A model generated the notes under the pieces. The model was not told the origin of the DNA. It did not search any database and worked only from the letters and a program-made list of their open reading frames with translations. DNA of 31,693 nucleotides from a virus, in the IMG/VR virus record IMGVR_UViG_3300002835_000704, positions 1 to 31,693 of that record; one strand, written 5' to 3'. Shown piece after piece: positions 2,972 to 31,693 of this stretch. Numbering within the stretch: position 1 is the first letter of the stretch; each line of letters opens with the position of its first letter. A program made the position numbers and the translations under genes.

Positions 2972-3724
2972 TTAAAGCAAATCAAAAGGAATTGATGGGA
3001 AATTTTCTTGAGTCCACAAGACCATAGTTTCAATATCAAAATTAATATCACAATCTTCATTAATAATACCAAAAGAAGAATCTACAGAATTTTTTTTATT
3101 TGTATCTGGGATAATACTACTCAAAGGAATTTCAATCCCCGGTTTAAATCCAATTTCTTTTACATAATATTCGGAAATAGAGAAATCTTCAACTTTTGGA
3201 ATATTAAAGTGTTCACAAACACTATCTAAGGTTTTTCTTTTATTTGTAAAAAAATCATTACTTTTAATCCACAAAACATCTTCAACTTCCATTAGATATA
3301 ATATTCTACTCATCCACATTGCTGTAATTTTTTTAATATCGGATTCCAAAGAATGTTCTTTAACTAATGGATGCAGACATTTGTTACCATAGAAATCAAC
3401 TTGAGAGACTATTTTTTCAATTCTTTTTTTCTCTAAAGATAAAATTTTAATTAAATGATGAGTTAAATTTCTGTATAAAAATACTTTTTTCCCACGATAA
3501 AAATTAGAAAAAGAACAATATATACTTGGAAATTTAATTATACAATCAGATCTTTCATTCAAGATTTTATAAAATTCTTTTTTAGAATCTTCTTCTGTCA
3601 ATATTGAATGCAACCAAGGAGGTTCTGAATAAACTTCTGAAGAAAATCTCAACAAAGTAGACATTAAAGTTGAACCACAATGCGATGTATGATAAATTTG
3701 ATGAATATTATTCATTTTCAACAT
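2972..3724 (-). CDS. Sulfotransferase-like P-loop protein
   Basis: A 250-aa protein. Near the N-terminus, IYHTSHCGSTLMSTLL matches the 5'-phosphosulfate-binding loop of the bacterial sulfotransferase-like family, whose signature is 'H-x-x-x-C-x-STLL-x-x-L' followed by a conserved E-P (here S-E-P-P-W). A second block, KKVFLYRNLTHHL, fits the 3'-phosphate-binding strand and helix ('VFLYR'). The segment around AMWMSRI...VLWIKSNDFF fits the later W and acidic-position blocks. It probably transfers sulfate from PAPS, or is a relative with a changed substrate; acceptor unknown. ATG at 3724 overlaps the upstream oxygenase gene by 17 nt, and a second ATG at 3715 would still overlap by 8 nt. It closes an apparently coupled trio with two 2OG-Fe(II) oxygenases. 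Neither start has a clear Shine-Dalgarno. Confidence 0.65.
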   Translation of the reverse strand: MLKMNNIHQIYHTSHCGSTLMSTLLRFSSEVYSEPPWLHSILTEEDSKKEFYKILNERSDCIIKFPSIYCSFSNFYRGKKVFLYRNLTHHLIKILSLEKKRIEKIVSQVDFYGNKCLHPLVKEHSLESDIKKITAMWMSRILYLMEVEDVLWIKSNDFFTNKRKTLDSVCEHFNIPKVEDFSISEYYVKEIGFKPGIEIPLSSIIPDTNKKNSVDSSFGIINEDCDINFDIETMVLWTQENFPSIPFDLL

Positions 3725-4409
3725 CCCATTCTTTTATTTTCCATTTATTTGAAAGTTCTGGATACATTGGTGAAGGTATCATACCAATAAAATAAGTAAT
3801 TGCATACCTTCCAAAATTATTATTATAATCTTCTTGTCCTATATTTACTTTTTTGACAGAATGTTTTACATATGCTGGAGTAAGAATTATAGTATTGTGT
3901 TCACATTTAAAGTGATAGTTTCCATATTGTGGGAAATATAATTCTCCTCCCGTATATTTTTTTGGTTGTTTGTTGAAATAAGTAAATATTGCATAATTAC
4001 TTCTATAATCAGTATGAGGTTTATAATACTCTCCATTAGCATAATATCTTGCTTTTACTAGACAGTGAGAATTTTCTAAATCCAATAAACTCAAAAATTG
4101 TGGAAATCTATCAACAAAAGAACTTATAAATTGATGATCAATTTTTTTTTTAAATAATTTAAAAATATTTGAATATGGTTGTTGGTTATAAAAATCGTTT
4201 AATCGTATTGCCTTATGATTCGTGAGAAAAACTACCTTATCATCTTTAACAGCAGATGCTCCATGAACATGTCCTGGAGGTAAAAACTTTTGCTCTTCTG
4301 TTATTGAATCAAGCACTTCCCAAATTAGTTTTAACTCTTCTTCATCATAAAAGTTTTCAGCAATTAAATGTGGAAATGGTTCTGTTAATATTGTAATTTT
4401 TTTATTCAT
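3708..4409 (-). CDS. 2OG-Fe(II) oxygenase (prolyl-4-hydroxylase-like)
   Basis: A 233-aa protein. I place the start at ATG 4409, which overlaps the upstream stop as TAATG; a TTG at 4421 would extend it by four residues but is less likely. It has the double-stranded beta-helix iron motif H132-x-D134 (in KPHTDYRSN), distal H183 (in AYVKHSVKKV) and R201 (in GRYAITYF) as likely 2-oxoglutarate ligand. The block YTGGELYFPQYG is the typical 'GGEL-F' strand of prolyl-4-hydroxylase-type enzymes. These enzymes hydroxylate protein side chains or small molecules using O2 and 2-oxoglutarate; the substrate here is unknown. It is the middle gene of an overlapping trio (oxygenase, oxygenase, sulfotransferase-like) just downstream of an S74 tail fibre, which suggests action on virion proteins or surface glycans (inference). 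Confidence 0.85.
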   Translation of the reverse strand: MNKKITILTEPFPHLIAENFYDEEELKLIWEVLDSITEEQKFLPPGHVHGASAVKDDKVVFLTNHKAIRLNDFYNQQPYSNIFKLFKKKIDHQFISSFVDRFPQFLSLLDLENSHCLVKARYYANGEYYKPHTDYRSNYAIFTYFNKQPKKYTGGELYFPQYGNYHFKCEHNTIILTPAYVKHSVKKVNIGQEDYNNNFGRYAITYFIGMIPSPMYPELSNKWKIKEWDVENE

Positions 4410-4954
4410 TATCCGTACCAACCAACTAAAACTTCTCTTTCACCAGATATAAGTTGTGTTGCTCTATGAATCAAGTTTGAAGGAAAAACAACATAATCAC
4501 CTTCATCTAATTTTTTTGAAAAAATTTCATTATCATATTTAATTTCCAATTTACATCCCTTATAATTATTTTTTGGTGTTAGGCAATAAATTATAGTTAT
4601 TAATCTTTTTAAATTAGGATCAGAATTATCTAATACGTCAGTGTGCCAATCATAATGATGTCCAAAATTACAATATTTAGTATATTGCATATTAGTTTGC
4701 CAATCAGAAAGTTTAAATTTCCAATTATCTTGATTTATATTTTTTACAAGATTTTTTAGAAAAGAACTGATTATATTTTTTTTATCTTTAGAAATCCAAA
4801 CAATTTCGCAATCTCTTTGTTCTTTTATAAATTTTTGTTTTGTACGTACATTAAATAACTTTGTTTTAATATTTTCATCATCAATATACTTCTTTATGGA
4901 AATAATTTGATTTATATCATTTCCATAAAATATTAAATTTTTTAAATCCGACAT
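4409..4954 (-). CDS. 2OG-Fe(II) oxygenase (PKHD-type)
   Basis: A 181-aa protein from ATG 4954, one base after the stop of the S74 fibre gene (TAA-A-ATG), so probably translationally coupled. The C-terminal half carries the full oxygenase signature: H104-x-D106 (HYDWHTDVLD), the strand RLITIIYCLTP, EGDYVVFPSNLIHRA with H163, and R173 followed by VLVGWYG. The ending 'x-R-x-x-x-x-GW' is typical of PKHD-type hydroxylases. The N-terminal ~85 residues lack a familiar motif and resemble the substrate-recognition part of such enzymes only in size. It is distinct in sequence from the adjacent oxygenase at 3708-4409, so this is not a simple recent duplication. Substrate unknown. Confidence 0.87.
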   Translation of the reverse strand: MSDLKNLIFYGNDINQIISIKKYIDDENIKTKLFNVRTKQKFIKEQRDCEIVWISKDKKNIISSFLKNLVKNINQDNWKFKLSDWQTNMQYTKYCNFGHHYDWHTDVLDNSDPNLKRLITIIYCLTPKNNYKGCKLEIKYDNEIFSKKLDEGDYVVFPSNLIHRATQLISGEREVLVGWYG

Positions 4955-4955
4955 T

Positions 4956-6947
4956 TTATTGTTTTAACTTTCTCTCCAGTTCTTCAATACGAACTTGTTG
5001 TTCCTTGATTGCTTCAATCAATACACCAACGATGTTTCCATAAGATACTGATTTTGTTCCATCAGCACTCGTTTCTACAAGTTCTGGAAGAACCTTCTCA
5101 ACTTCTTGAGCAATCAAACCAAGTGATGGTTTATTATTATCTATCCAATCAAATCTTACACCTTGAAGTTGTTTTGTAAGTTCAATTGAATTTTCTATTG
5201 GTTGAATATTTGTTTTTTGGGTCACATCAGAGAGTGATGTGAATTGTGTTGCTGAAAGATTTCCAGTTGATGGGTTGAATTGAAGTTTTGTTGATGATAC
5301 ATTTACTGTTGATACAGATCCAGAAGTTGCACTGGTAATAGGAATGTATCTGGTTGCGTTTGTTGAAGTATCATCAGTAAGTGTTAATCCTCCAGAAGCT
5401 GCTTGCCATGTAGGAGCACCGGCAGTTCCATTTGAAGTTAATACCTGACCTGCAGTACCATAATTAGCACCATTGAGACCAAATGCACCAGAACCATTAA
5501 ATTGGGCTCTATTGTTTCCTGCACCATCAGATAAGAAGATATGGTTGGTGCAGCTGACAAATCCAGTTCCAGTAAATCCACCAATAACAACATTGCAACC
5601 ACCAGTAATTAAACAACCTGAGTTGCATCCTAAAAAGACATTATTAGAACCAGATTGGTTGGACGTACCAGCATTAGGACCTAAAAAGATATTAGAAGAT
5701 CCAGTGAATATAGAAGATCCTGCATTACATCCCAGGAAGAAGTTATTAGATGGAGGAGACTTAGTATCAATGTTTGTAGCAGAAGTGTTACAAGAGAGGA
5801 AGTTAGAAGTACAGCAAACAGTAATTGGACTTGCATTAAGTGTACTCCATGTAGGAGAAGCAGCACCATTGGAAGTTAATACTTGTCCAGCAGACCCAGC
5901 AGCAGTAATTGCCATTGCTGATGAAGTAGAATATACAACTCCACCATTAACTGCCGTTAATGAAGCATTAGTACCACCATCAGCAAGAGTTACATCAGTT
6001 CCACCAGATACATAAACAGTTCCACTAACATCTTGGAATGTTACGGTTCTTGATGCCCCTAGTGTTGTTGGTGTAAGAGAAAGATTGAAACTTGATGTTC
6101 CACCAGCACGTCCATTCAATGAAATGGAGTCTTGTGTTACAGCATTTCTTGCTGTAATAATGCCAGTAAATAAACCACCACCCTGAACTGTGAGTAACGA
6201 TGTTGGATTAGTGGTTCCGACTCCAACAAAACCACTACTATTTACAGTAACATCATCAGCACCTCCACCATCTCTTCTAAGTCCTGATGGAGAATAAGAA
6301 TCAAGGAATGCAAGTTGTCCTAGATACTGATTAAGTGGAACTTGAGATGCACCAATACCAATATCTGCCTGAGATACTAGGTTCCAGTATTGACCTGCAT
6401 AAAGTTCTGTGATTGTTCCACCAACAGATAGAGTGGATGTTGGATTTGTTGAACCAATACCAACAGAACTACTAAAGTAACCACCACCAGTAACCTGAAG
6501 TGGTTGTGATGCTGTTCCTGTTGTAGAACCTGTCCCTATAACTAACGAGGTTCCAGTAGCAGGAATAACCCAACTATTACTGGAAAATTGGTAAGCAAGT
6601 CTATTTGAACCTTGTGATTGAATATTAATATTGCTATTATCGTTATGATTTAATACAAATCCATTACCACTTGATGATATTAATGTTCTGGTTCCAGCAC
6701 CTCCAACTTCACTAATACCTAATGTTCCAGCAATTGCAACTTGTGTATTTGATGCTGGATTTGTATTACCAACTCCAAGATTGCCAGAAACATAACCACC
6801 ACCAGTAACTTGAAGTGGTTGTGATGCGGTTCCTGTTGATGTTGCTGATCCTACTAAAACTGGTCCGTTTGTAAAAGTTGAGATGCCAGTAATTCTTAAA
6901 CCTTGGCTGTCATCAATTACAGTAGTACCCGAAATCTTAATTGCCAT
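4956..6947 (-). CDS. Tail fibre protein with C-terminal S74 intramolecular chaperone
   Basis: A 663-aa protein with a good Shine-Dalgarno (GAGGA, 7 nt spacer) before ATG 6947. It opens with MAIKISGTTVIDDSQGL and repeated fibre units (GISTFTNGPVLVGS, SQPLQVTGGGYVSG, VGIGSTNPTSTLSV). Residues ~375-460 are a Cys-rich patch of NN-x-FLG-x-NAG repeats. The C-terminus (from S573, in SDVTQKTNIQP) is a peptidase S74 / endosialidase chaperone domain: LGLIAQEVEKVLPELV, SVSYGNIVGVLIEAIKEQ, and a short coiled coil. The family helps fibres trimerise, then cleaves itself off just before the conserved Ser; S573-D574 are present. Location in the virion tail is inferred from the family. Two further S74 fibres occur at 11059-14802 and 14824-15825. 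Confidence 0.88.
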   Translation of the reverse strand: MAIKISGTTVIDDSQGLRITGISTFTNGPVLVGSATSTGTASQPLQVTGGGYVSGNLGVGNTNPASNTQVAIAGTLGISEVGGAGTRTLISSSGNGFVLNHNDNSNINIQSQGSNRLAYQFSSNSWVIPATGTSLVIGTGSTTGTASQPLQVTGGGYFSSSVGIGSTNPTSTLSVGGTITELYAGQYWNLVSQADIGIGASQVPLNQYLGQLAFLDSYSPSGLRRDGGGADDVTVNSSGFVGVGTTNPTSLLTVQGGGLFTGIITARNAVTQDSISLNGRAGGTSSFNLSLTPTTLGASRTVTFQDVSGTVYVSGGTDVTLADGGTNASLTAVNGGVVYSTSSAMAITAAGSAGQVLTSNGAASPTWSTLNASPITVCCTSNFLSCNTSATNIDTKSPPSNNFFLGCNAGSSIFTGSSNIFLGPNAGTSNQSGSNNVFLGCNSGCLITGGCNVVIGGFTGTGFVSCTNHIFLSDGAGNNRAQFNGSGAFGLNGANYGTAGQVLTSNGTAGAPTWQAASGGLTLTDDTSTNATRYIPITSATSGSVSTVNVSSTKLQFNPSTGNLSATQFTSLSDVTQKTNIQPIENSIELTKQLQGVRFDWIDNNKPSLGLIAQEVEKVLPELVETSADGTKSVSYGNIVGVLIEAIKEQQVRIEELERKLKQ

Positions 6948-20822: not shown

Positions 20823-20828
20823 TTTTTT

Positions 20829-21044: not shown

Positions 21045-21079
21045 ATTAGATTAAATTGAAATTTGTTTATCCTTAAAAA

Positions 21080-21468: not shown

Positions 21469-21925
21469 CAACATCAGGATCCACAAATATATATTTGTTT
21501 TGATTTAGATCATACATTAAAACGTAACCATCTTGAACGTTACTAATATCAATATTTCCAAGGCCATCTAGATTACTACTATCAAGAATTCCAACGGATG
21601 TTGTTTCATTTACAATGATATTTCCCTCTACTACTTTTCTTATTTTAGAACTACCATCTATAAGAATTAAATCATAATAATTTCTACCACTACTCAAATT
21701 TAATGTTTGAGAATTCGTTAAAGATATTTTTAATCTACCGGCACTTCTATCAACAAAAGTAATTACAAAAGGAGTATATTTTGGAGATTCTGGATATTTT
21801 CTTATTTTTGCCGCAGCAGTATAACCAACAAGATTTAATGGAGACCCATCATCTTCTGCGAGATTAAATTCTTCTTCAAAATCGGTTCCTTTATCTAACG
21901 TAAAATTGGCTGCATACGTTGCCAT
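21365..21925 (-). CDS. Ig-like phage tail protein with shared 'DGYVL' module
   Basis: A 186-aa protein from ATG 21925. Residues 1-108 (ANFTLDKGTDFEEEFNLAED, LVGYTAAAKIRKYPESP, ITFVDRSAGRLKISLTNSQT, YYDLILIDGSSKIRKVVEG) match a common phage tail beta domain. In that domain a 'G-x-x-F' input strand, a 'G-x-x-x-x-x-x-L-x-x-x-x-T' strand and 'YDL-x-x-x' end with 'VxEG-x-x-V'; it is often seen in baseplate or fibre-associated proteins. Residues ~124-186 are the module shared with the two smaller downstream genes. A late-promoter candidate AATAAATA lies 26 nt upstream. A structural role in the tail is inferred. Confidence 0.78.
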   Translation of the reverse strand: MATYAANFTLDKGTDFEEEFNLAEDDGSPLNLVGYTAAAKIRKYPESPKYTPFVITFVDRSAGRLKISLTNSQTLNLSSGRNYYDLILIDGSSKIRKVVEGNIIVNETTSVGILDSSNLDGLGNIDISNVQDGYVLMYDLNQNKYIFVDPDVVLSKSVEDDSLPQEFVDQLDVDLDNRINLDSGEF

Positions 21926-21950
21926 CTTGTAGTTATAAATTGTCCAAAAG

Positions 21951-21958
21951 TATTTATT
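21951..21958 (-). promoter_or_regulatory. Late-promoter candidate AATAAATA
   Basis: Located in the 38-nt gap, 26 nt upstream of the start of the Ig-like/module protein at 21925. Confidence 0.5.
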
Positions 21959-21963
21959 TGATA

Positions 21964-22527
21964 TTATTTCTGCATTCCCAAAAATGATCGTCCATCATAG
22001 ATAAGATCTTTATGAGGTCCATTTATATCAACATAATGCAAAAATGCCTGAAGATGCCATTTATTTTTAAAAGGTGGTCTCCAATGATATAAATCACATC
22101 CACGATATAAACACAAATCTCCTGGATTTAATTTAATTTCTGTTGCATTTGATTGGTCTTCATTTTCACTAAAAAAGATAGAGTTAATTTCCTCTTCTTG
22201 AGAAAATCCAAGTGCAAGAGTTGCCGATATTTCACAAGATGGACGATCCCGATGAATAACCAATTCATCATTTTCTTTGTAAAGCCTTACATAGGAATAT
22301 TGAGGGGCAAGATTAATTCCAGTAATATCACTCAAAGGTTCGCAAGATTTCCCTAAAATCGTTTCAATTAATGGATCTGCATAGAAAGAATAACTAAAAG
22401 GTGCCTGAGGATCAACAACAGATTGTTGTGCATTAATTCTTACAAAAAAATATTCTTGAATAAAATTAACAAAATCCAATTCAAGAAAGTTTTCTATTAC
22501 TTGGTATCCTTTTCTTTGGAAAATCAT
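21964..22527 (-). CDS. Putative 2OG-Fe(II) oxygenase, atypical 2OG site
   Basis: A 187-aa protein. I use ATG 22527, preceded by GAGG with a 5-nt spacer; the frame extends upstream only to a TTG at 22566. The iron motif is H92-x-D94 (LVIHRDRPSCEI) and H148 (CDLYHWRPPF), with the typical strand LNPGDLCLYRG before the distal His. The Arg that usually binds 2-oxoglutarate about ten residues after the distal His is not evident: the sequence there is NKWHLQAFLHYVD, with H158 at that position. It may use another residue or a different co-substrate, or be inactive. It lies 7 nt downstream of another oxygenase gene and just upstream of the Ig-like/module trio. Confidence 0.75.
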   Translation of the reverse strand: MIFQRKGYQVIENFLELDFVNFIQEYFFVRINAQQSVVDPQAPFSYSFYADPLIETILGKSCEPLSDITGINLAPQYSYVRLYKENDELVIHRDRPSCEISATLALGFSQEEEINSIFFSENEDQSNATEIKLNPGDLCLYRGCDLYHWRPPFKNKWHLQAFLHYVDINGPHKDLIYDGRSFLGMQK

Positions 22528-22534
22528 AATTACC

Positions 22535-23209
22535 TCACTTAAATGCGGGACCGTGAACCCAACCAACTAAAGTATATCTTGTTCCTTTAGTAACAGGTTT
22601 AACTTCGTGCAACGTATAAGATGGGAAAAAAATTATTCTGCCTCTTTTCTTTTCTATAATTGTTGGTTCTTTCCCTGTATATAAACAAAGATCTCCACCT
22701 TCATAGTCACCTGAATCAGAAAGTTGAAGAATCAAACTCAATTTACGATTTTCTGGCACATTAGTTCCTGATATTGGATCTATATGTTTTTCATAAAAAC
22801 CATTATCTTCTTCTTTATATTTTGTAAATTGAAAAGTTTCTAATTTTGTTAAATCAAATTGGAAGAATTGATCATTTATTTGATTCACCGCATCCGTAAT
22901 TTTTCTGTAAATCCATTCGGTATGTTTATTGGCAAACATCCACGACAATTTACACATACGAACATCTGAATTTACCTGACTAATATTTCCACCAACTCTT
23001 GCCAGCTCTTCTGCATATAAATTTCCAAATCTGATAATTTGATCCAATTGATCTTCACAAAAAACATCATCAATAAACGCAAAATTTTGATAATCATATC
23101 TCTTTAGGTACCAAAAATCTTGAGTCTTATATTTAAAATCTTCTGGATCTATAATTGGTGCAATTTGATCCAAATTAAATTTAGGTGCAATAAAATATGA
23201 TGAAATCAT
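22535..23209 (-). CDS. 2OG-Fe(II) oxygenase (PKHD-type)
   Basis: A 224-aa protein from ATG 23209; a TTG two codons earlier is a weaker choice. It has a complete oxygenase signature: H142-x-D144 (FYEKHIDPISG), RKLSLILQLSDSGDYEGGDL, GRIIFFPSYTLHEV with H201, and R211 in GTRYTLVGWVHGPAF. The 'YEGG-x-L' and 'x-R-x-x-L-x-GW' blocks are typical of PKHD/prolyl-4-hydroxylase-type enzymes acting on protein residues. The N-terminal ~125 residues contain aromatic helices (DFWYLKRYDYQNFAFIDD). The pair with 21964-22527 is closely spaced but the two are divergent in sequence. Substrate unknown; a virion structural protein is a reasonable guess from location. Confidence 0.87.
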   Translation of the reverse strand: MISSYFIAPKFNLDQIAPIIDPEDFKYKTQDFWYLKRYDYQNFAFIDDVFCEDQLDQIIRFGNLYAEELARVGGNISQVNSDVRMCKLSWMFANKHTEWIYRKITDAVNQINDQFFQFDLTKLETFQFTKYKEEDNGFYEKHIDPISGTNVPENRKLSLILQLSDSGDYEGGDLCLYTGKEPTIIEKKRGRIIFFPSYTLHEVKPVTKGTRYTLVGWVHGPAFK

Positions 23210-23264
23210 TTTCAAAGTTTTGAGATAAAGAATATTTTTTTAAATTTTAAAGATCTTATTTTAA

Positions 23265-23846
23265 TTATTCGTAATGATTTGAAGGCCAGTCAATTTCCAA
23301 ATCAAATTGGGGCAAATCTGAAGGAAATTCTACAGCATCAATTTGCGAAATTAATGCTGCTTCCAGATCAAAACACTTTTGTGTGTAGTCATTAAGAGCA
23401 TTTGCAATAAAAATAATATCATTAGAAGTAAATTCTACTGTAGAATTATTGTGTTTCCAACTAAAAGTTTTTTCTGGTGATGATGCAACTATTTGCGTCT
23501 TTAAAAGAATCGCAGTTTTTGTTCTTTCATCGGTATTAATTAAAATATTTTTATATAAAATTCCACGATTTTCTGCTTCCCATCTTTGACCCGCATATTC
23601 ATTTTTAATTGAATTCTTTGCAAATTCTAACCAGTATTCAGCAAATTCAAATGTAAATGAAAAATCTGAATCAAACTTAATCCATCCAAAATTTTCGTGG
23701 CCTGCCCAACCCAAATCAGATAATTCTTCATCACTTAATGACTCCATTCCGTGAATATTTTCCCAATTTTCTGGTAACTTTACTGGGTGATTTAAGACCT
23801 TGTTAATATTTCTGTCAACCAAGACATAAAAATTTTTTCTAGTCAT
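23265..23846 (-). CDS. DUF4376-like phage tail-associated protein
   Basis: A 193-aa protein. ATG 23846 overlaps the upstream stop as ATGA, so translation is likely coupled. Residues ~105-170 (TDERTKTAILLKTQIVASSP, FSWKHNNSTVEFTSNDIIF, NALNDYTQKCFDLEAAL) fit DUF4376: an initial helix, a W-x-x-x-x-x-x-V-x-F-T-x-x-D strand/helix, and a long final helix ending ISQIDA. The N-terminal part (LSDEELSDLGWAGHENFGWI, FAEYWLEFAKNSIKNEY) is rich in aromatic and acidic residues and unassigned. It differs from the other DUF4376-like protein at 862-1542 outside this domain. Both sit beside structural genes, suggesting an accessory role in fibre assembly or attachment. Confidence 0.75.
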   Translation of the reverse strand: MTRKNFYVLVDRNINKVLNHPVKLPENWENIHGMESLSDEELSDLGWAGHENFGWIKFDSDFSFTFEFAEYWLEFAKNSIKNEYAGQRWEAENRGILYKNILINTDERTKTAILLKTQIVASSPEKTFSWKHNNSTVEFTSNDIIFIANALNDYTQKCFDLEAALISQIDAVEFPSDLPQFDLEIDWPSNHYE

Positions 23847-24367
23847 TCTTTTACTCTTTTTCTAGTTGATCTTCTTTGTTGTGGTTTTTGAATTTCTTCT
23901 ATGGATTCCTTTGTGGATTTTTGTTTAACTTGTTTTTTAAATTCTTCTTTTATTTCCTCTTTTGATGGTGGAAGTTGTTTGACTTCTTTTGCTGCTTCCA
24001 ACTGCTTATCAGATTTTTTATTTTCAGGAGAAACTTGCCAAGGAGCAGCACCTTTCCAATGAACGTGATCTATATTATCAACATCCCATCCCCTCCAAGC
24101 ACTATAATCATCTTTTGGTTTTGTTGCAACTTGAACTCCGGCAGCAGCTGCTATTTGTTCTAGCATTTCAATTGCTTCTACTGGACTCAAAATACACCAT
24201 AATGAATGATAATCACCTCTCATATTAACTTCAATTGCACCACCAAAAGCAGTTCCTACAGTAATTGAACGAGCACGATTCTTGTTTTGTTGAAGATTTG
24301 CATACTCATTTTCTTCATACATTTGATTGATTCTTTTACGAATTGCAGTTTCTTCTTTTTTTGGCAT
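23843..24367 (-). CDS. Conserved marine-phage-type protein with charged C-terminal tail, function unknown
   Basis: A 174-aa protein from ATG 24367. The N-terminal part is a folded-looking region: ANLQQNKNRARSITVGTAFG, GAIEVNMRGDYHSLWCILSP, VEAIEMLEQIAAAAGVQVAT, then WRGWDVDN and HWKGAAPW. From ~residue 115 on it is a low-complexity Lys/Glu/Gln tail (KEEIKEEFKKQVKQKSTKES, ending RRSTRKRVKE), probably disordered. I recall similar 'SPVEAxxxxEQ...GVQ' proteins in T4-like marine phages, without known function. An AATAAATA motif overlaps the stop of the upstream collagen-like gene and may drive this gene. Confidence 0.7.
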   Translation of the reverse strand: MPKKEETAIRKRINQMYEENEYANLQQNKNRARSITVGTAFGGAIEVNMRGDYHSLWCILSPVEAIEMLEQIAAAAGVQVATKPKDDYSAWRGWDVDNIDHVHWKGAAPWQVSPENKKSDKQLEAAKEVKQLPPSKEEIKEEFKKQVKQKSTKESIEEIQKPQQRRSTRKRVKE

Positions 24368-24393
24368 ATCAAAAAAATAATTAAATCTTTTAC

Positions 24394-24401
24394 TATTTAT
24401 T
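24394..24401 (-). promoter_or_regulatory. Late-promoter candidate AATAAATA overlapping a stop codon
   Basis: The motif overlaps the stop of the collagen-like gene (24397) and lies about 27 nt upstream of the gene starting at 24367. Confidence 0.48.
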
Positions 24402-25707
24402 GAGTTGTCCAGGTAATTGTTACGAATCCTCCTGGAGCAACTGTAACTGGATAAGTTTGTCCTCCAGTAATCACAGATGCCAAATTAGTCGTATTTGCTG
24501 CAGATCCTGCTCCTCCAGGATTGGAACTGCCCGATCCACCAGGATTTCCTGGATTTCCTGGGTTTCCACCAGATCCAGAATTTCCTGGATTTCCACCAGA
24601 TCCTGGATTTCCTGATGATCCTGGATTTCCCGGATTTCCTAATGGAGAGGGGGATTCAAAGCTAGAAAAGAAACCTGCTCCACCACCCCCACCACCTCCA
24701 CCGGGGCTGAATGAACTACTACCGCCACTGCCTCCAGATCCACCAGGAAATACTCCAGGAGTACCAGATCCACCGGACGGACTCCCTCCCCCAGCAGAAC
24801 CGCCAGAACCTCCAGATCCACCAGGCCCTCCTGGACCACCCACGCCACCGGCACCACCATTTCCACCTGTACCATTATTTCCCGGATTTCCAGAATTTCC
24901 TGCTCCACCACCCGATCCATTATTTCCTGGATTTCCTGGATTTCCAGAATTTCCAGTTCCACCAGGATTACCTGTTCCTGCAGATCCCCCTGCGCCTCCA
25001 GGAAAAATTAATCCAAATACTGATGAATTAGATCCAGTAGTTCCTGCATTTCCGGGATTTCCCGGATTTCCACCACTACCTCCTGATCCAGAATTTCCTG
25101 GATTTGCACCAGATCCTGGATTTCCTGATGATCCTGAATTTCCTGGATTGGCACCAGATCCTGGATTTCCAGGATTACCGGGGTTTCCCGAAGATCCTGT
25201 ATTACCCGATCCTCCAGAATTTCCTGGATTTCCTGGATTTGCAGGAGTTCCACCCCTACCTCCATTGCCTCCAGATCCACCAGAACCACCAGATGGTCCA
25301 CTACCAGAACCTCCTGGATTTCCTGCACCTCCTGCGATGGATCCGCCGCGGCCAGCAGCCAGACCGCCACCGCCACCGCCACCTCCACCACCACTACCAG
25401 AATTTCCAGGGGCTCCTGACAAACCTCTATTTCCGGGATTTCCTGGATTTCCTGCATTACCACCCGATCCAGAATTTCCCGGATTTCCTGGATTTCCACC
25501 GCTACCACCATTACCGCCTCCACCTCCTCCACCACCATTTCCTGCAGATCCAGGATTTCCAGGATTTCCTGCTCCACCTCTTCCAGAAACACTTAAAGTT
25601 CTTAATCTTGAAGGAGCAGTAAAATTTCCCGGAGCATTGAAGGTAATAGAACTCGCACGATCCATAAATCCTGGAGATCTAGATTTTCCACTGGCACCTA
25701 ATGGCAT
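24397..25707 (-). CDS. Glycine-rich collagen-like / polyglycine-helix fibre protein
   Basis: A 436-aa protein from ATG 25707. Residues 1-45 ([20 protein letters not shown]) resemble the N-terminal strand of phage glycine-rich domains. Residues ~46-400 are almost entirely Gly, Asn, Ser, Pro and Ala, often as G-x-y triplets with Pro in the third position ([27 protein letters not shown]), broken by poly-Gly and by one hydrophobic patch, [11 protein letters not shown]. Residues ~401-436 ([20 protein letters not shown]) form a beta cap. Two folds fit: a collagen-like triple helix, or a sandwich of polyglycine-II helices like the glycine-rich motifs of T-even gp38 adhesins. Either way it is likely a fibre or tip adhesin. 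The 2OG-Fe(II) oxygenase gene lies immediately upstream, 35 nt away. Confidence 0.85.
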
Positions 25708-25732
25708 TTTAGTATTTCTTTATTTCTAAAAT

Positions 25733-25740
25733 TATTTATT
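25733..25740 (-). promoter_or_regulatory. Late-promoter candidate AATAAATA
   Basis: Located in the 35-nt gap between the HxE oxygenase stop and the collagen-like gene (start 25707). If active, the fibre could be transcribed separately from, and more strongly than, its upstream oxygenase. Confidence 0.5.
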
Positions 25741-25742
25741 AC

Positions 25743-26339
25743 TTAATCCAAATAAAACCAACCTGTTACAATATACTTTGATTCGTTTCCGTGAACTACA
25801 TTTCCTCTGTGAGTATGAGTGTAAGCAGCTGGCCAAATTGCAATTGAATTTTCTTTGGGAGGAACTCTCAATCTTTGATATAAAAATTCAGTTTCTCCTG
25901 CACAATTTTCTCCCAATGTGTTTAGATATAAACTATAAGCCAAGATTCTATTTGCAAGATCTCCCCCATTTTGTTCAGAATGCCAAATATGATATCCGGC
26001 ACCCGGAATTGTTTTTTGCATTTTTACAGAAGTGCATCTAATTGGAAGATCTCTCAAAATATCAAATTCTGAACTATACTCATCATAACACTTTTGAAGT
26101 CCTTCCCAAAAAATAGATAAAGACGATTCATTATTAAAACTTGATAATGAATGATTTTTTAAATTCAAAAAGAGAAATTCATCTTGCTTTTTTGTCTTAT
26201 CAATTTCTTCAGATTTTTGCCGATCAGATCCAACTCCAGATTGAAATAGTCTTTCAAATTCTTGTATTAAGTGATGACAAAAACCATCAGGATACACATT
26301 TTCATATAATCCAATAAAATCTATATATTGTTTGTTCAT
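25743..26339 (-). CDS. 2OG-Fe(II) oxygenase-like protein with HxE iron motif
   Basis: A 198-aa protein from ATG 26339. The C-terminal half fits the 2OG-Fe(II) fold: GAGYHIWHSEQN, then RILAYSLYLNTL, CAGETEFLYQRLRVPPKENS, IAIWPAAYTHTHRGN, and SKYIVTGWFYLD. The proximal motif is H120-x-E122 instead of the usual H-x-D, the distal His is H175 or H177, and the 2-oxoglutarate position is K188 in place of Arg. I recall these as features of a phage-rich subgroup, so it may well be active. It lies directly upstream of the Gly-Asn-Pro-rich protein, which offers many Pro residues in collagen-like Y positions; hydroxylation of that protein is a hypothesis from position only. It follows the giant fibre gene by 14 nt. 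Confidence 0.8.
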   Translation of the reverse strand: MNKQYIDFIGLYENVYPDGFCHHLIQEFERLFQSGVGSDRQKSEEIDKTKKQDEFLFLNLKNHSLSSFNNESSLSIFWEGLQKCYDEYSSEFDILRDLPIRCTSVKMQKTIPGAGYHIWHSEQNGGDLANRILAYSLYLNTLGENCAGETEFLYQRLRVPPKENSIAIWPAAYTHTHRGNVVHGNESKYIVTGWFYLD

Positions 26340-26353
26340 ATTTGGATATAATA

Positions 26354-29300
26354 TTATGTAAAGTTATATAGGGCGATATTACCGTACCAAGTTGTTCCAT
26401 TATTTGGAGTAAAGAAGGACCAAATATCAGTTGCATTGGCAGTGGTTGTTCTTGATGGAGTTACGTTATTTGGCCATTTTACTGATGCTGGCCATACAAT
26501 CGTTCTTCCTGCGGTTGTATCATTTGCCAATATTAACGTAAATGATGCAGTTCCTGAAGTTACACCTGTAGTAAATGTAAACGTACAATTACCTGTCAAT
26601 GTTGCAGTAAACACGTTTCCGTTAGCTAAATTAATAGTCGCAGCAGTTCCAGTATTTCCTAATGCACTAGTAGCTTCAACATAATTTTTTAATACTGCTT
26701 TATCTAAAGTTGTTGAAGATAAATCAATTCCCGTAGAATTAATTGTAATTGCAGATCCGACTACCAAATTAGTTCCATTAAATGTTAAATTTGAAGATCC
26801 TGCAAAATCTCCAGATGATCTGTACTGAACTTGATTATCAGATCCAGCAGCATTTGAAGTGATTGTAGCCACTCCAGAAGATGCAGTAATTGATAAAGTT
26901 CCTCCATTAACGTTAATAACTGTAAGTGCAGTGCCGACACTTACATTATTTTTTCTTAACTCTACTCCAGAAATAACGTTACTTAAACTACTACCATCAC
27001 CAATAAATTTATTAGCTGTTACAATACCACTGAATGATGCTTGAGTTCCAAAGAGTGATGTTGTATGAGTTGTAATACCAGAAAATGTAGAAACTCCAGT
27101 AACATTTAATTGTTGCGAAGTTAAATTAGTAGTACTTGTTACACCTAATGTAGTAATTCCAGAAACTGTAAGGAAAGTTGATCCAACAGAAATAGCACTA
27201 ATAACATTACTAGAATTAAAATTTGTTGCATTTACTGTCGCAAAAGTGCAAACTCCAGTAACATTTAATTGTTGTGAAGTTAAATTAGTAGTACTTGTTA
27301 CACCTAATGTAGTAATTCCAGAAACTGTAAGGAAAGTTGATCCAAGAGAGACTGCAGTGAGATTTCCTGTTATATTTGGATTATTCGTAAGATCATATCC
27401 AGCACCATTGCCAACAAGAATAGTTCCCGCAACAGGAGTTGATGTTAGATTTGTACCACCTTTGTTTAAAGGAACTGGACTTGTAAGATTATTTGGATCT
27501 TGATAATAGGATCCATCTTGTCCATCTAACTTATCTGCATCAACATCACCTCCTTGGGCAGAAGTTTTAATTCTTACTGCACCATCACCATCAAAAGCAA
27601 ATGTTGATTTCTTAAATTTAGAAACTCCAACGTTTGTGTAATTTACATCTCCAAGTATACCATCAACACGATTTAATTTAAGATTTACATTTCCATAGTA
27701 GGTTGTAATCCCCGATGAAGCATCAAAAGAAGTTCCAGTAACTGTAAATGGTTCAGTAGTTCCAATTCCAACACCTTTTACAACTTTTTGGAAGGTGCTA
27801 TTTCCAGATAAAAACGTATCAATAGTAGCAGATCCACTTCCAAGACGAGTTGGTGAAATAGTTCCAGAAATAATATTAGATGCGTCAATATTAGTTCCTG
27901 AGATTACCGAATAATTACTTGCGCTTGTTGAAGAAGTATTAACTACTTTATTATATTGAACATTTTGTTTTGTAAAGGTGGCAATTCCAGATCCTGTAGA
28001 TCCTAGAGAAACAGCACTTACAGACAATCCATTAATTGAAGCAAGTGCATCTCCTCTTAAACTATGCAGAGTAAACCCATTTGTAATTACAGATCCAATA
28101 AAGTAGAAATATCCTGAAGTAAGTCCTGAAGGTAATCCTACACCTACAACTTTAACAGCATCTCCAGTAGAGTAACCGTGATTTAGTAAAGTTATAAAAT
28201 TAGAGCTTGTATTTACTCCAGATCTTGTTAAAGAGTGTGTTCCAGTTCCAGTGCTGGTCAAATCAAGAATATTTAAAAGTCCATAATTTGTATAAAGTTC
28301 AACAGAAGTTATTCCAACCTTTTTAATATAATAAGTTTGATTATTCGTTAATCCTCCAATTACAGATCCTGCACCAATATTATAAATGACAGGATCTCCG
28401 TCAGAAAATGTATTTACACCAACAATAATTCTATTTTGAGTTGTATCAATATCACTTAAAGAATTAAATGATGTAGAATACCCCACACTTATATCTGTAG
28501 ATAATCCTATAGCATCATTATCTGAAATAAAATCTGGAGATGTTATAGATGCAGCAAATTTGGTATTATTTGTTAGTTTTGTATATAATCTAGTCTCTAC
28601 AGAATTAACAGTAACAGTTGCATAATTTGTTCCACTTATTGGAACACTTGTAATTCTTAATATATCATTTGCAGCATAATTTCTCCCACCAAATACAAAA
28701 TCAACATCTATAATTTGCCCAGAAGAATTAACGGTTACATTTGCAACTGCCGATGTTCCTATACCCGTTGATGTCGCAATTGAAACATTGTTATAAGTTC
28801 CCTGCACATAACCAGATCCACCAGATAATAGTGTACTAAGAACTAATACACCCTTAACTAATCCAGTAGTTCCGTATCCAACATTATGAGGTGTAGTTAC
28901 AATTCCAATTGCAACATTATTATTTGCAGATACAATTTGTGTACCATTTGTAAAATTATAATTTCTTGTAGAATCACTTAGAACTAGATATTGACTATCT
29001 CTATCGTTGATTAATCTATATGTTAGAGTTCCAATTCCCGTAGATTCAACAACAAGATCTCCAGAAAGTAAATCTTTTGGTGGAACATCATCAACTAACG
29101 ACAATCTTGCATCAGTTATTGTACTGATATAATATCCAGATTCTCTTGCGACAGAAATTAATTCAGAATTAATTTGTCCGGAAGAATTTAAAATAACAAC
29201 TGCATTTGGTACTGAACTTGTAGATGCATTTTTATCAATAAAATCGCCAAGACGATCATTTAAAAATGTTCTTTGTGCCTTTTGTGTGCTAAGTCTATAG

Positions 29301-31693
29301 TCTTGAGCGCCACCAGGTTCGTTATCACCTAAACCAATATCAGCAGATACTTCTGTAATTTCCGGACTATTTCCAATTTTAAATTTAAGGCTTGTTAGTT
29401 CACCGATTGTAACAGTATTATTAAATATAATATTTCCAGTTCTATTAAATGCTGTAATTGCATCACCTACTTTAAAGTCACCAAGTTCATTTGTTCCTGA
29501 AGTATAAACTCGGCCGCCCCTTTCAGATACTTGCTCTTTTGTAGAGTCAACAATTCCACCATTTTGTGGAAGTGCATTATAATCATTTCCAGATCCAACA
29601 TATTCCCAAGTATGAGAAGATGAGTTAATAATACTTGGACGATGGAAATAACAGAAATAATTTTCAGGTAGAGATGATACATTTTGAATACTTTCTCCAG
29701 TTTCTGTCGTTCCAACCGTAACATCAATCGTATAATAAGATGTAATTCCAACAACAGATGTAACTGATGCTGTTTGTGGTGATGGGCTATGATCTTGAAT
29801 TGTTCCTACAGTATTAAAATCTACACCACTTTGTACTGAAACAAGAAGTTTATTAGAAGTAAATGTTACTGCATATCCAGAAGCACTAGTAAATGTTTGT
29901 GTAATTAATCTTCCAGGAACAAAAGCATATGAACTTGAATCTAAAGTAAGTTCTTGATAATTATTATGGTAAGATGGAATATTTTCTACAAAAAATTCAT
30001 TATTTGACTTCTGTAACGTATGAATACCAGAAGATGTATTAGTCAGATCAACAACTTTAGTTAAACTAATATCTTCATAAAGTTTAATGGTATTAATACC
30101 AACATAATCTACAAAATATTCTTTTTTATCCACCAATCCACCAATAGCACCAGAAGAACTTTTTATATAAAGAACTGTATCAGAATCTGTGAGATTATGA
30201 GATGTTATTGTAATTTCATTTGAAACTGTGTTAATTCCCGAAACACCATCAAAAGTGGTAGAATATCCAACACTTTTAAAAGTACCAGTTACATCTTGAT
30301 AACTTTGATTATAAAAACGAAGAACATAATTTGTTTGTTCTTTTCCACCCAAACCAACAATTTTTAAAGATTGATTTCCATCAACTACAGAATTTGCAGC
30401 AACAATTCCTCTATCAAATACAAAAGAATTTGGACTAAATCCTTTGGATCTAAGTGCATTAGTTCCAAAGTTTGTAGCAGAGTTTGTAATAGAGAGATAT
30501 CCACCAGATTCAGATAAAGATCCATCTTGGCAGAAAATTTGGAAACAAGATACTAATTGAGCATATCCATCATTAATTGCTCTATATCCAATACCACCAA
30601 AAGAAACTAGAGTAAAAGCATTTGCAACTATAGATTTTCCTTGTTCAGGAACTCCACCAATCGCAGGATTTTCTGCTTCATTTGGAATAGTTGGTGTATT
30701 TGGTGTGACAACTTTATTCCCATCAACCAAAATTCCATTACCGCCCAAGAAAGAAATTACTGAACAATTTTGAATATATGGAGATCTTGTAATTACGGGT
30801 TTAGTATCTGTAACTGCATATCCAACTCTAGAAGTTGTTGCATCTAATGGATCATCAAATGATAAAGCATAGTCAAAAGTGTATTGGGGAACCCCACTAA
30901 TAACGTAATCTCTTAGAGTAATTCCAGACACATAGGCTCCATTACGAACCCTAAACATATCTTTTCCGGCACTTTGAGGTCTTACAATAGTATTTCTAAT
31001 ATTATCCCCAATAATGCTAACATCTTCATAAAGAATAATGGGATTATCTTCTACGTAATCACCAGTCTCAACAAATATTACAACTTTTCCACCTCTCTGC
31101 GATGCTAATTGTGCTGCTTTTTTAATAGTTTGTACTGGTAAAAGAGTACCATCATTCGCATCATTTCCTTTTGTAATAGAAACATAAATTCTATTATCAA
31201 AAGCACCCAAACTAGGTGCAAAAGACAAGTTTCCAAAACCATCAGTAACAATAGATTGGCCAGCAATTCCATCTGATGTTGGATATTTTAGATTTGATAC
31301 GGTTAATATCCCAGATATATTTAATTGCTGTGTGGTTAAATTAGTAGTACTTGTAACTCCTAGTGTACTAATTCCAGATGAATTAATGTTTGTTAAAGTA
31401 GCATTGGTACTATTCAGAGTTGTAACAGTACCAATTGTACCACTTAAGTTTGTTAAAGTAGCATTGGTACTATTCAGAGTTGTAACAGTACCAATTGTAC
31501 CACTTAAGTTTGTTAAAGTAGCATTGGTACTATTCAGAGTTGTAACAGTACCAATTGTACCACTTAAGTTTGTTAAAGTAGCATTGGTACTATTCAGAGT
31601 TGTAACAGTACCAATTGTACCACTTAAGTTTGTTAAAGTAGCATTGGTACTATTCAGAGTTGTAACAGTACCAATTGTACCACTTAAGTTTGT
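26354..31693 (-). CDS. Giant beta-helix tail fibre/spike protein, N-terminus beyond the window
   Basis: The frame is open from the window edge to the stop at 26354: 1779 codons are visible, so the true start lies upstream. A TTG at 31228 is internal. Regions in order: five 20-residue tandem repeats (31388-31693); a unit NLTTQQLNISGILTVSN; a pectate-lyase-like beta helix (~31200-30400; IYVSITKGNDANDGTLLPVQ, YVEDNPIILYEDVSIIGDNI, SPYIQNCSVISFLGGNGILV); a domain with WEYVGSGNDYNALPQNGGIV and VYTSGTNELGDFKVGDAI; repeated beta units; two near-identical NLTSQQLNVTGV units; and a compact C-terminal tip (TLTGNCTFTFTTGVTSGTAS, VWPASVKWPNNVTPSRTT, NNGTTWYGNIALYNFT). The beta-helix part is related to 16168-18042. 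It is probably a major tail spike or fibre; enzymatic activity cannot be judged. Confidence 0.83.
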   Translation of the reverse strand, partial: TNLSGTIGTVTTLNSTNATLTNLSGTIGTVTTLNSTNATLTNLSGTIGTVTTLNSTNATLTNLSGTIGTVTTLNSTNATLTNLSGTIGTVTTLNSTNATLTNINSSGISTLGVTSTTNLTTQQLNISGILTVSNLKYPTSDGIAGQSIVTDGFGNLSFAPSLGAFDNRIYVSITKGNDANDGTLLPVQTIKKAAQLASQRGGKVVIFVETGDYVEDNPIILYEDVSIIGDNIRNTIVRPQSAGKDMFRVRNGAYVSGITLRDYVISGVPQYTFDYALSFDDPLDATTSRVGYAVTDTKPVITRSPYIQNCSVISFLGGNGILVDGNKVVTPNTPTIPNEAENPAIGGVPEQGKSIVANAFTLVSFGGIGYRAINDGYAQLVSCFQIFCQDGSLSESGGYLSITNSATNFGTNALRSKGFSPNSFVFDRGIVAANSVVDGNQSLKIVGLGGKEQTNYVLRFYNQSYQDVTGTFKSVGYSTTFDGVSGINTVSNEITITSHNLTDSDTVLYIKSSSGAIGGLVDKKEYFVDYVGINTIKLYEDISLTKVVDLTNTSSGIHTLQKSNNEFFVENIPSYHNNYQELTLDSSSYAFVPGRLITQTFTSASGYAVTFTSNKLLVSVQSGVDFNTVGTIQDHSPSPQTASVTSVVGITSYYTIDVTVGTTETGESIQNVSSLPENYFCYFHRPSIINSSSHTWEYVGSGNDYNALPQNGGIVDSTKEQVSERGGRVYTSGTNELGDFKVGDAITAFNRTGNIIFNNTVTIGELTSLKFKIGNSPEITEVSADIGLGDNEPGGAQDYRLSTQKAQRTFLNDRLGDFIDKNASTSSVPNAVVILNSSGQINSELISVARESGYYISTITDARLSLVDDVPPKDLLSGDLVVESTGIGTLTYRLINDRDSQYLVLSDSTRNYNFTNGTQIVSANNNVAIGIVTTPHNVGYGTTGLVKGVLVLSTLLSGGSGYVQGTYNNVSIATSTGIGTSAVANVTVNSSGQIIDVDFVFGGRNYAANDILRITSVPISGTNYATVTVNSVETRLYTKLTNNTKFAASITSPDFISDNDAIGLSTDISVGYSTSFNSLSDIDTTQNRIIVGVNTFSDGDPVIYNIGAGSVIGGLTNNQTYYIKKVGITSVELYTNYGLLNILDLTSTGTGTHSLTRSGVNTSSNFITLLNHGYSTGDAVKVVGVGLPSGLTSGYFYFIGSVITNGFTLHSLRGDALASINGLSVSAVSLGSTGSGIATFTKQNVQYNKVVNTSSTSASNYSVISGTNIDASNIISGTISPTRLGSGSATIDTFLSGNSTFQKVVKGVGIGTTEPFTVTGTSFDASSGITTYYGNVNLKLNRVDGILGDVNYTNVGVSKFKKSTFAFDGDGAVRIKTSAQGGDVDADKLDGQDGSYYQDPNNLTSPVPLNKGGTNLTSTPVAGTILVGNGAGYDLTNNPNITGNLTAVSLGSTFLTVSGITTLGVTSTTNLTSQQLNVTGVCTFATVNATNFNSSNVISAISVGSTFLTVSGITTLGVTSTTNLTSQQLNVTGVSTFSGITTHTTSLFGTQASFSGIVTANKFIGDGSSLSNVISGVELRKNNVSVGTALTVINVNGGTLSITASSGVATITSNAAGSDNQVQYRSSGDFAGSSNLTFNGTNLVVGSAITINSTGIDLSSTTLDKAVLKNYVEATSALGNTGTAATINLANGNVFTATLTGNCTFTFTTGVTSGTASFTLILANDTTAGRTIVWPASVKWPNNVTPSRTTTANATDIWSFFTPNNGTTWYGNIALYNFT
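27092..27345. repeat. 95-nt near-perfect direct repeat in the giant fibre gene
   Basis: Positions 27092-27186 and 27251-27345 differ at one base. They encode a unit read as LTVSGITTLGVTSTTNL plus TSQQLNVTGV. A diverged third unit lies near 31290-31376. Confidence 0.85.
31388..31693. repeat. 60-nt perfect tandem repeat, 5.1 copies, running off the window
   Basis: The same 60 bases recur with no mismatch from 31388 to the window end. On the minus strand each unit encodes 20 residues (TIGTVTTLNST, then NATLTNLSG). The reading frame is preserved because 60 is a multiple of three. The true copy number is unknown. Confidence 0.95.

Follow-up and report, generated by a model that had tools for sequence, protein, structure and literature searches.

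Mimivirus reportedly encodes a collagen together with a bifunctional lysyl hydroxylase/glycosyltransferase. A similar arrangement is found on the minus strand of a 31,693-base virus record of the IMG/VR type (IMGVR_UViG_3300002835_000704; hereafter the window, meaning its whole length), where a 2-oxoglutarate (2OG)-Fe(II) oxygenase, ox1, precedes a Gly/Asn/Pro-rich protein, GLY. GLY belongs to a cassette with up to three 2OG oxygenases (ox1, ox2 and ox3), a 174-residue protein (S174) and a protein resembling the tail-fiber-assembly protein Tfa (D4376). The likeness to mimivirus is that a virus encodes both a Gly-x-y protein and its hydroxylase; mimivirus, however, is a giant virus with a true collagen and Lys as the target, whereas the window comes from a tailed phage and combines a Pro/Asn-rich Gly protein with enzymes of the prolyl 4-hydroxylase (P4H) type. 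The claim that the two systems work alike, as a viral hydroxylase with a Gly-x-y protein, is stronger than any claim of membership for GLY. The original prediction for this locus had read ox1 and GLY as a possible virion hydroxylation pair with a collagen-like fiber, and had named a polyglycine-II adhesin as the competing idea. From gene content, gene order, protein composition and predicted folds, we put at roughly 65% the probability that a conserved phage cassette, present once in the window, produces a Gly-rich tail-fiber protein, probably that of the tip, and hydroxylates it post-translationally.

On the enzyme side, the closest described protein is the P4H of PBCV-1 (Protein Data Bank (PDB) entry 5c5t), which like ox1 is viral, has about 200 residues and the same fold, and was the best match of ox1 in both the profile and the Foldseek searches. 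Unlike ox1, it comes from a virus of a eukaryotic alga, and its iron motif is presumably HxD in place of the HxE of ox1. On the fiber side, the closest systems are polyglycine-II fiber-tip adhesins. In Salmonella phage S16 the gene of gp38 adjoins the distal fiber gene; the GLY set is likewise encoded with a large fiber gene (26354..31228) and a Tfa-like gene (23265..23846). Published work is cited here from excerpts of the papers concerned. S16 gp38 has Gly-rich motifs packed as a lattice at the fiber tip (PMC9608196), which is its possible likeness to GLY; the difference is that GLY gave no sequence or structural match to gp38. Pam3 gp24 (PDB 7ypx) has a tumor necrosis factor (TNF)-like base and a Gly-rich distal domain, is assembled by a chaperone; its authors drew a comparison with S16 gp38 (PMC9608196). 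The likeness of GLY to Pam3 gp24 lies in a predicted beta base, a Gly-rich, possibly distal part, an assembly chaperone and a weak structural similarity (see below), but gp24 carries an N-terminal helical shaft within the one protein, while GLY is without the shaft and has longer Gly-Asn-Pro arms; the excerpts of PMC9608196 mention no oxygenase in Pam3.

2OG oxygenases are numerous in cyanophages: 24 are predicted in S-SCSM1 (PMC10665884), and in another cyanophage they have the highest copy number of all auxiliary genes (PMC10436341). The cyanophage 2OG-Fe(II) oxygenases (T4-GC 240, 412, 101 and others) include homologues of ox1, ox2 and ox3 at less than 60% identity, and roles in DNA repair or in 2OG/nitrogen metabolism have been proposed for such enzymes (PMC3037559, PMC9146016). 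The nearest printed idea to fiber hydroxylation is the remark that viral use of P4H 'remains cryptic', in an article stating that viral collagen can form part of tail fibers and that prolyl hydroxylation stabilizes collagen (PMC9301287). In titles, abstract openings and excerpts from a literature that took in few subscription journals and no preprints, we found no proposal of fiber hydroxylation in tailed phages.

Conservation of the oxygenase and GLY genes

ox1 (25743..26339, minus strand; ATG start, 198 residues, PF13640, phrog_61, HxE iron motif) and GLY (24397..25707, minus strand; ATG start, 436 residues), the candidate fiber-tip adhesin and candidate substrate, lie 35 nt apart, and both open reading frames (ORFs) are where the original prediction had placed them. 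Relatives were collected by scanning IMG/VR with ox1 (best 80 of 478) and with the ends of GLY (best 80 of 223), which gave 149 loci including the window, several of them on the same contigs; GLY and ox1 are each represented by 85 distinct sequences. A Gly-rich ORF lies within 1.2 kb downstream of ox1 in 78 of the best 80 of the 478 ox1 relatives, and the remaining two loci (L033 and L083) end at a contig edge. Among 79 pairs including the window, the gap between ox1 and GLY is -4 to 35 nt in 44, 525-585 nt in 34 and 1123 nt in one. The wider gaps are usually filled by an oxygenase-like gene of the ox2 family, GLY being next to ox1 or one to two genes off, and in many loci an ox2 relative stands directly upstream of GLY. 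By per-gene profiles, both partners are present in 144/149 loci; in the five that miss one of them (L033, L083, L125, L129 and L139), the contig ends adjoin the missing gene.

The order ox3-ox1-ox2-GLY-S174-D4376 is found in 70 of the 149 loci and the same order without ox2 in 44, while that of the window, ox1-GLY-S174-D4376-ox3-ox2, occurs in 12 (variants counted); the rest show rarer or partial forms. The flanks also differ. L014 has a match to a T4-type baseplate hub/lysozyme, in L022 and L035 the flanking genes encode virion structural proteins and endolysins, and a structural protein of L077 finds its fullest matches in phages of ~52-65 kb such as Pelagibacter phage HTVC027P and Planktothrix phage Pag-Yong1; carriers of the L022, L035 and L077 type may be short-tailed phages. 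Given the two main gene orders and the differing flanks, the unit seems to persist across phage backgrounds while its genes are rearranged. The pairing of oxygenase and GLY is real and conserved, and probably functional.

Linkage in repeat-pattern scans

Linkage was also measured in scans that were not seeded by an oxygenase. Back-translated repeats were searched against IMG/VR, and an oxygenase was counted when a profile of ox1, ox2 or ox3 matched (E 1e-3) within 2 kb of a distinct ORF that was 100 residues or longer, contained 20% Gly or more and was flanked on either side by 1.5 kb or more of sequence. The pattern scans comprised at least 119 or 120 stretches each, from which the ORFs kept out of the distinct ones were 38/71 for GNPGNPGN, 14/43 for GNAGNAGN, 29/66 for GGAGGAGG, 15/46 for GPx, 23/68 for GGNGGNGGN, 6/18 for G[STA]P and 7/19 for GNPGNPGN in cellular genomes. 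The oxygenase hidden Markov models (HMMs) were grown from ox1, ox2 and ox3 of the window and miss other 2OG families in all sets. Some counted matches are weak (L235 at 29 bits; two opposite-strand matches at 30-31 bits in the GGNGGNGGN set), and on visual inspection some of the GPx and G[STA]P ORFs resemble chance frames in GC-rich DNA.

Viral GNPGNPGN ORFs had an oxygenase within 2 kb in 34/38 cases, all on the same strand, and within 700 nt in 32/38. The GNAGNAGN ORFs, which are also rich in xPG triplets (median 4 per 100 residues), had one in 14/14. The corresponding counts were 3/29 for the GGAGGAGG ORFs and 1/15 for the collagen-like GPxGPxGPxGP ORFs with Pro at X (Fisher p against GNPGNPGN 3e-11 and 2e-8, respectively, ignoring shared descent). 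Two scans made to separate Asn from Pro gave 5/23 (GGNGGNGGN) and 1/6 (G[STA]P), and with the GNPGNPGN ORFs of cellular genomes no oxygenase was found in any of the seven flanked cases or the 19 overall. When 120 Gly-rich ORFs were pooled, an oxygenase accompanied 38 of the 39 with at least 2 xPG per 100 residues and at least 8% Asn, 7 of the 54 with neither property, 6/15 with high xPG alone and 3/12 with high Asn alone. The linkage signal belongs to the Gly-Asn-Pro unit and therefore does not tell Pro from Asn as the modified residue; a claim restricted to Pro is weakened by these counts.

All 34 positive GNPGNPGN ORFs have an ox3-type neighbor (one at 29 bits), so that ox3 is the most constant partner. 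An ox1-type neighbor is present for 26 of the 38 (22 at 200 bits or more), and all three oxygenases for 14. The enzyme-fiber pair of the original prediction holds as a linkage, but not as one enzyme with one substrate.

ox1 resembles prolyl hydroxylases

The oxygenase identity assigned from the letters is upheld by matches to PF13640 (E 3.8e-9; 37.8 bits, cut-off 27) and to phrog_61, '2OG-Fe(II) oxygenase' (E 1.6e-37). H120, E122, H177 and K188 are invariant in 54/54 aligned copies, window included, and we take their roles to be those of the family, with the first three binding iron and K188 binding 2OG. The motif YHxWHxEQ...THxHRGN...KYI is largely preserved across the same copies. Among distinct copies, H.WH.E is found in 85/86, and H.HRG and the late Lys each in 86/86; a strict expression of the whole motif matches 73/85.

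Searching PDB sequences with the ox1 profile gave four matches at E ≤0.1, all of them P4Hs, of which the PBCV-1 enzyme was the best (E 5.5e-4; the other three 0.017-0.021). The AlphaFold2 (AF2) model of ox1 has a mean predicted local distance difference test score (pLDDT) of 87 and a predicted template modeling score (pTM) of 0.85. Foldseek matched this model to 5c5t (E 2.7e-10) and also to a Pseudomonas P4H solved with EF-Tu and to HIF prolyl hydroxylases. In VIA-align, scores ranged from Z 17.4 to 19.8 and nearly all of the 50 rows shown were prolyl hydroxylases, among them 4j25 (Z 19.8), PHD2 (Z ~19), 5c5t (Z 18.4), an algal P4H with a (Ser-Pro)5 peptide (3gze, Z 18.2) and the human collagen P3H1 complex (8k0m, Z 17.8). 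The predicted structure places ox1 in the double-stranded beta-helix fold of the P4H/PHD branch, in line with the prolyl-hydroxylase kind proposed originally. Because both the profile matches and the predicted fold are those of prolyl hydroxylases, ox1 is likely a peptidyl-residue hydroxylase, of which we infer the target protein and residue.

Composition and predicted fold of GLY

GLY consists of 40% Gly, 12% Asn and 11% Pro, with one Lys in the whole protein, and contains 25 GNP, 3 ANP, 29 NPG and 39 Pro-Gly sites. Strict Gly-x-y runs five or more triplets long comprise 81 triplets of GLY, with Pro 24 times at Y, the position that the original prediction had noticed, and 3 times at X, and with Asn 39 times at X. 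Across 54 distinct proteins of the family, N-P occurs 372 times against ~115 expected from composition, and P-G 684 times against ~442. Within the Gly-x-y runs of 52 aligned GLY proteins, Pro takes 17% of Y and 2% of X, and Asn 34% of X; in collagen-like viral ORFs that have no oxygenase close by, the pattern is inverted, with Pro at 50% of X and 4% of Y. Pro at Y alone is not diagnostic, since GGA-type ORFs without an oxygenase also prefer Pro before Gly, at about one third of the density. A lysyl-hydroxylase reading was ruled out for the window by the single Lys of GLY; Lys takes 0.2% of X and 0.8% of Y in the 52 aligned proteins.

No strict Gly-x-y run of GLY exceeds 24 triplets, and the one of that length includes poly-Gly; the median longest run is 9 triplets in the 52 aligned proteins versus 27 in the collagen-like viral ORFs without a nearby oxygenase. 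Against Pfam Collagen (PF01391) GLY scores 17.7 bits, below the cut-off of 27.2. Four of the 52, window included, match it at E ≤0.01, and the L019 protein (56.7 bits) is above the cut-off.

Confidence in the AF2 monomer of GLY is confined to three separated pieces (residues ~20-60, 210-250 and 395-436) that together make up a beta base; most of the long Gly-rich sequence falls in blocks of pLDDT 34-64, and 309 of the 436 residues are under 70. At the N-terminus, predicted beta strands in residues 15-60 (25528..25665, minus strand; pLDDT 66 in the block 11-20, then 87-98) lead into the first Gly-rich arm, and TF[NY] occurs near the N-terminus of 81/85 distinct relatives. A central hydrophobic hairpin is predicted in residues 205-255 (24943..25095, minus strand; blocks of pLDDT 60-98; strands 228-230 and 233-235), where F235, G238, G241 and G244 are at least 90% conserved in A1. 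The C-terminal beta strands (YPVTV...VTITW; residues 395-436, 24400..24525, minus strand; pLDDT 80-97) carry a motif found in 83/85 distinct relatives.

In VIA-align of this core, the Pam3 fiber 7ypx ranked second (Z 6.2 over 82 residues, 2.5 Å, 23% identity), a weak similarity (Z below 8), behind an unrelated protein (Z 7.3, 7% identity) and tied with gamma-carboxylase rows (Z up to 6.0, 8-9% identity). Foldseek of the GLY model gave nothing in the PDB at E ≤0.001 and, in BFVD, one strong nameless row (A0A516KZD8) besides weak 'glycine-rich domain' phage proteins. Searches of PDB sequences with the GLY alignment or with one relative found nothing significant, the Pam3 fiber included, and tblastn of full GLY and of a 94-residue consensus of the GLY ends against phage records gave no match, within the limits set by low-complexity masking. 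Because a beta base with Gly-rich arms recalls Pam3 gp24, itself compared with S16 gp38, the model makes a polyglycine-type tip more likely than a collagen triple helix, which GLY probably is not. The fold thus leans, weakly and with most of the Gly-rich part at low confidence, to the idea that the original prediction had listed as competing.

A lysine-type parallel in cultured phages

In Synechococcus phage S-CAM9 (L625, NC_031922.1, 513-9369), a collagen-like fiber (PF01391, E 1.9e-21) precedes a small gene, two oxygenases and a 613-residue protein that bears domains of the GT25 (E 6e-29) and PLOD-glycosyltransferase (E 7.5e-47) types. By eye, the last 200 residues of this protein resemble a 2OG domain; Pfam found none there, but one homologue carries the annotation 2OG oxygenase. 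Relatives of the GT25/PLOD-glycosyltransferase enzyme occur in 11 phage records. In four of five regions (S-CAM9, S-PRM1, S-8S53 and Roseobacter phage CRP-6), a collagen-like fiber with 22-26 Gly-x-Lys-Gly repeats is found upstream of the enzyme; the fifth, an 8-kb fragment, has no same-strand ORF with a Gly-x-Lys-Gly run. Two 2OG oxygenases lie between fiber and enzyme in the three Synechococcus phages (regions among L625, L627, L628 and L629), and no separate oxygenase is annotated in the stretch of CRP-6 examined. The residue before Gly thus matches the enzyme type, Lys with lysyl-hydroxylase-like and Pro with P4H-like enzymes, and the Lys-before-Gly fibers beside this enzyme provide an independent analogy for a hydroxylated fiber in the window. 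It is an even bet, in our estimate, that tailed phages run a collagen-like fiber maturation in general, with up to three 2OG oxygenases acting on Pro, and perhaps on Asn too, of Gly-Asn-Pro tips and a lysyl-type enzyme on Lys-before-Gly fibers.

Oxygenase homologues in cultured phages

The surroundings of oxygenase homologues were viewed in 13 of the several hundred phage records with a match; for ox1, there were 375 such records, of which six regions were viewed, with homologues at ~33-40% identity. In S-PM2, S-CAM3, S-H9-1 and S-H9-2, the ox1 homologue has a 'tail assembly chaperone' on one side and a fiber, collar or virion structural gene on the other, with a further annotated oxygenase adjacent. 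Virion structural proteins ~3 kb upstream of it in S-PM2 and S-CAM3 have Gly-rich segments with few xPG. Among pelagiphage regions, HTVC023P, HTVC008M and Mosig (three of four) have Gly-rich proteins a few genes from oxygenases, again with few xPG (0-8 each), and no Gly-rich protein was seen in the stretches of HTVC027P, the single-cell virus AG-345-E15 and S-T4 examined. Some ox3 homologues of marine phages have as annotated neighbors an oxygenase with UvsY and a helicase/UvsW.

Gene layout and host of the window

Directly upstream of ox1, the window encodes a large tail fiber protein of 1624 residues (26354..31228, minus strand; phrog_5342 tail fiber, E 7e-181), and in L007, L019 and L026 the ORF before ox1 has a C-terminus like that of this protein. 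Downstream of GLY follow S174 (23843..24367, minus strand), an ORF with no assigned function, and D4376 (DUF4376; 23265..23846, minus strand; PF14301, E 1.7e-12; phrog_10508 tail fiber), each with HMM matches in 144/149 loci; the L035 gene in the place of D4376 matches 'tail fiber assembly' families. The second 2OG-Fe(II) oxygenase, ox3 (22535..23215, minus strand; PF13640, E 5e-18), is YbiX/PKHD-like, is matched by NCBIfam PRK05467 models below cut-off, and has HMM matches in 138/149 loci. The third oxygenase-like protein, ox2 (21964..22566, minus strand; matches in 91/149 loci), gave no match in the Pfam search; it matches phrog_2954 (E 3.7e-41), which PHROG labels 'ferrochelatase'. This label is probably wrong for phrog_2954 and phrog_3531: visual inspection shows H-x-D...H in the proteins of both, and the label 2OG-Fe(II) oxygenase is also attached to several deposited homologues.

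Two more PF13640 oxygenases (3708..4421 and 4409..4954) adjoin a fiber gene with an S74 chaperone (4956..6947), bringing the 31.7-kb fiber region to four PF13640 oxygenases, or five counting ox2. An RCC1-type beta-propeller repeat protein (1576..2910; PF00415, seven stretches) also lies among the fiber genes. In L014, the ORF that follows the Tfa-like gene in place of ox3 and ox2 (8804-9643) has, by eye, a sulfotransferase-like start and may encode another surface-modifying enzyme. In L015, two collagen-like proteins with GPQ/GPT repeats, with Pro at X (9541-10989 and 10995-12377), stand just downstream of the cassette, the first being Collagen plus S74 chaperone in Pfam.

Cyanophages characteristically carry photosystem genes. 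The contigs of L007, L008 and L009, whose ox1 proteins are the closest non-identical relatives of that in the window (66% identical; best 80 of 478), encode a photosystem reaction-centre protein (PF00124, E 3e-74 to 5e-74), and the window is therefore most likely from a cyanophage. These three loci are mutually identical, so the evidence amounts to one virus; PF00124 was absent from all others of the 29 records searched, which may be fragments. The T4 capsid family gp23 was found in two of the same 29 records, not including the window or the L007, L008 and L009 contigs. Megablast of positions 20000-31693 and tblastn of S174 against phage records gave no match. All 11 copies of ATAAATA, which we take to be the T4-type late promoter core, are on the minus strand, and the motif lies at most 60 nt upstream of 9/26 genes including S174 and GLY (32 nt upstream of the latter). 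A base shuffle gives ~11 per strand, which equals the count but not the strand bias; since the count is at the shuffle level, we draw nothing firm from the motif.

Discussion

The pairing of P4H-like enzymes with a GNP-rich fiber protein suggests that phages of photosynthetic bacteria, and related uncultured phages, finish their own fibers much as animals finish collagen. The fiber, GLY, S174, the Tfa-like protein and the oxygenases would be produced together. While GLY is still unfolded, before its chaperone-assisted folding or in the course of it, ox1 (perhaps with ox3 and ox2) would add hydroxyl groups to the Pro, or alternatively to the Asn, of the Gly-Asn-Pro triplets, using 2OG, Fe(II) and O2. 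The assembly protein would then fold GLY onto the fiber. Hydroxyproline before Gly favors an extended left-handed polyproline/polyglycine-II backbone. The modification would therefore stiffen or hydrate the Gly-rich loops, whether in a polyglycine bundle or in a triple helix; it would stabilize the extended left-handed helices, expose hydroxyls at the tip, and might tune receptor binding.

Several observations speak against this proposal. The co-occurrence expected by the original prediction holds in the 144/149 loci and in the pattern scans but fails in cultured marine cyanophages: no GLY stands beside the ox1 homologue in S-PM2, S-CAM3, S-H9-1 or S-H9-2, where the fiber and structural neighbors fit a fiber role and break strict pairing, and in S-CAM8 and P-SSM2 the best ox1 homologue lies, without GLY, among replication or metabolic genes. 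Eight of the 38 GNPGNPGN ORFs have ox3 but no ox1 nearby, which weakens a strict one-enzyme/one-substrate pair, and four have no oxygenase at all. The linkage of ox1 and GLY is in part shared descent, and since cyanophages can carry many oxygenases, the chance level is raised and chance adjacency is not nil. The iron motif of ox1 has Glu instead of the usual Asp (HxE for HxD). In PBCV-1, hydroxyproline was sought in the virion and not found, and the role of its P4H is described as unknown in the excerpts (PMC7019647). Finally, it is gene position and a weak similarity of predicted fold that make GLY probably the fiber tip of the virion.

A variant in which the oxygenases hydroxylate Asn, or another residue, in place of Pro, and are asparaginyl hydroxylases by function, is unlikely but deserves weight. 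Asn is at 34% of X against Pro at 17% of Y, it predicts an oxygenase at least as well in a regression on the pooled 120 ORFs (standardized coefficients 1.56 for Asn and 0.95 for xPG), three different oxygenases could take different residues, and asparaginyl/aspartyl beta-hydroxylases are reported for other marine phages (PMC7029224, PMC3037559). ox1 nevertheless finds both its nearest solved relatives and its best fold matches among prolyl hydroxylases, and ORFs with at least 8% Asn and low xPG are linked in only 3/12 cases, yet the Pro-rich, Asn-poor ones are themselves linked in 6/15. That GLY forms a true collagen triple helix modified by ox1 as a strict collagen P4H is very doubtful: Gly-x-y runs with Pro at Y and the Collagen matches of 4/52 aligned proteins, including L019 above the cut-off, would suit it, but GLY of the window stays under the cut-off, the median longest run is only 9 triplets, and the part of the monomer model predicted with confidence is a beta base from which Gly-rich arms extend.

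The oxygenases might instead have as their targets other fiber proteins of the cluster, or else the surface or receptor of the host, the cassette being shared with GLY only because all serve adsorption. We regard this as improbable, even though four marine phages with no GLY at that place have an ox1 homologue next to a chaperone gene and a fiber or structural gene, and the window oxygenases at 3708..4421 and 4409..4954 adjoin other fiber genes, because the linkage follows the composition of GLY, with GNP-type ORFs linked and GGA- and GPx-type ORFs mostly not. The same composition dependence, in scans unseeded by oxygenases, together with the conservation of the cassette in two orders and the grouping of ox1 with peptide-modifying prolyl hydroxylases, makes it very improbable that these are enzymes of DNA repair or of 2-oxoglutarate/nitrogen metabolism, as earlier proposals (PMC3037559, PMC9146016) and the UvsY and helicase/UvsW neighbors of some marine ox3 homologues might suggest, placed beside GLY by chance or shared ancestry.

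Hydroxylation of the Gly-rich fiber protein, the reading we prefer, would tie the much-multiplied 2OG oxygenases to one kind of fiber protein and so provide a concrete candidate substrate for them. If it is right, phage attachment proteins carry hydroxylated residues, and polyglycine-type adhesins gain a stabilizing chemistry that the literature excerpts found do not describe for them. Adsorption would then depend on the O2 and 2OG of the infected cell, the photosynthesizing host being rich in O2. If such maturation is general among tailed phages, O2- and 2OG-dependent finishing of the fiber tip would also account for much of the large number of 2OG oxygenases that cyanophages carry for so far unexplained reasons.

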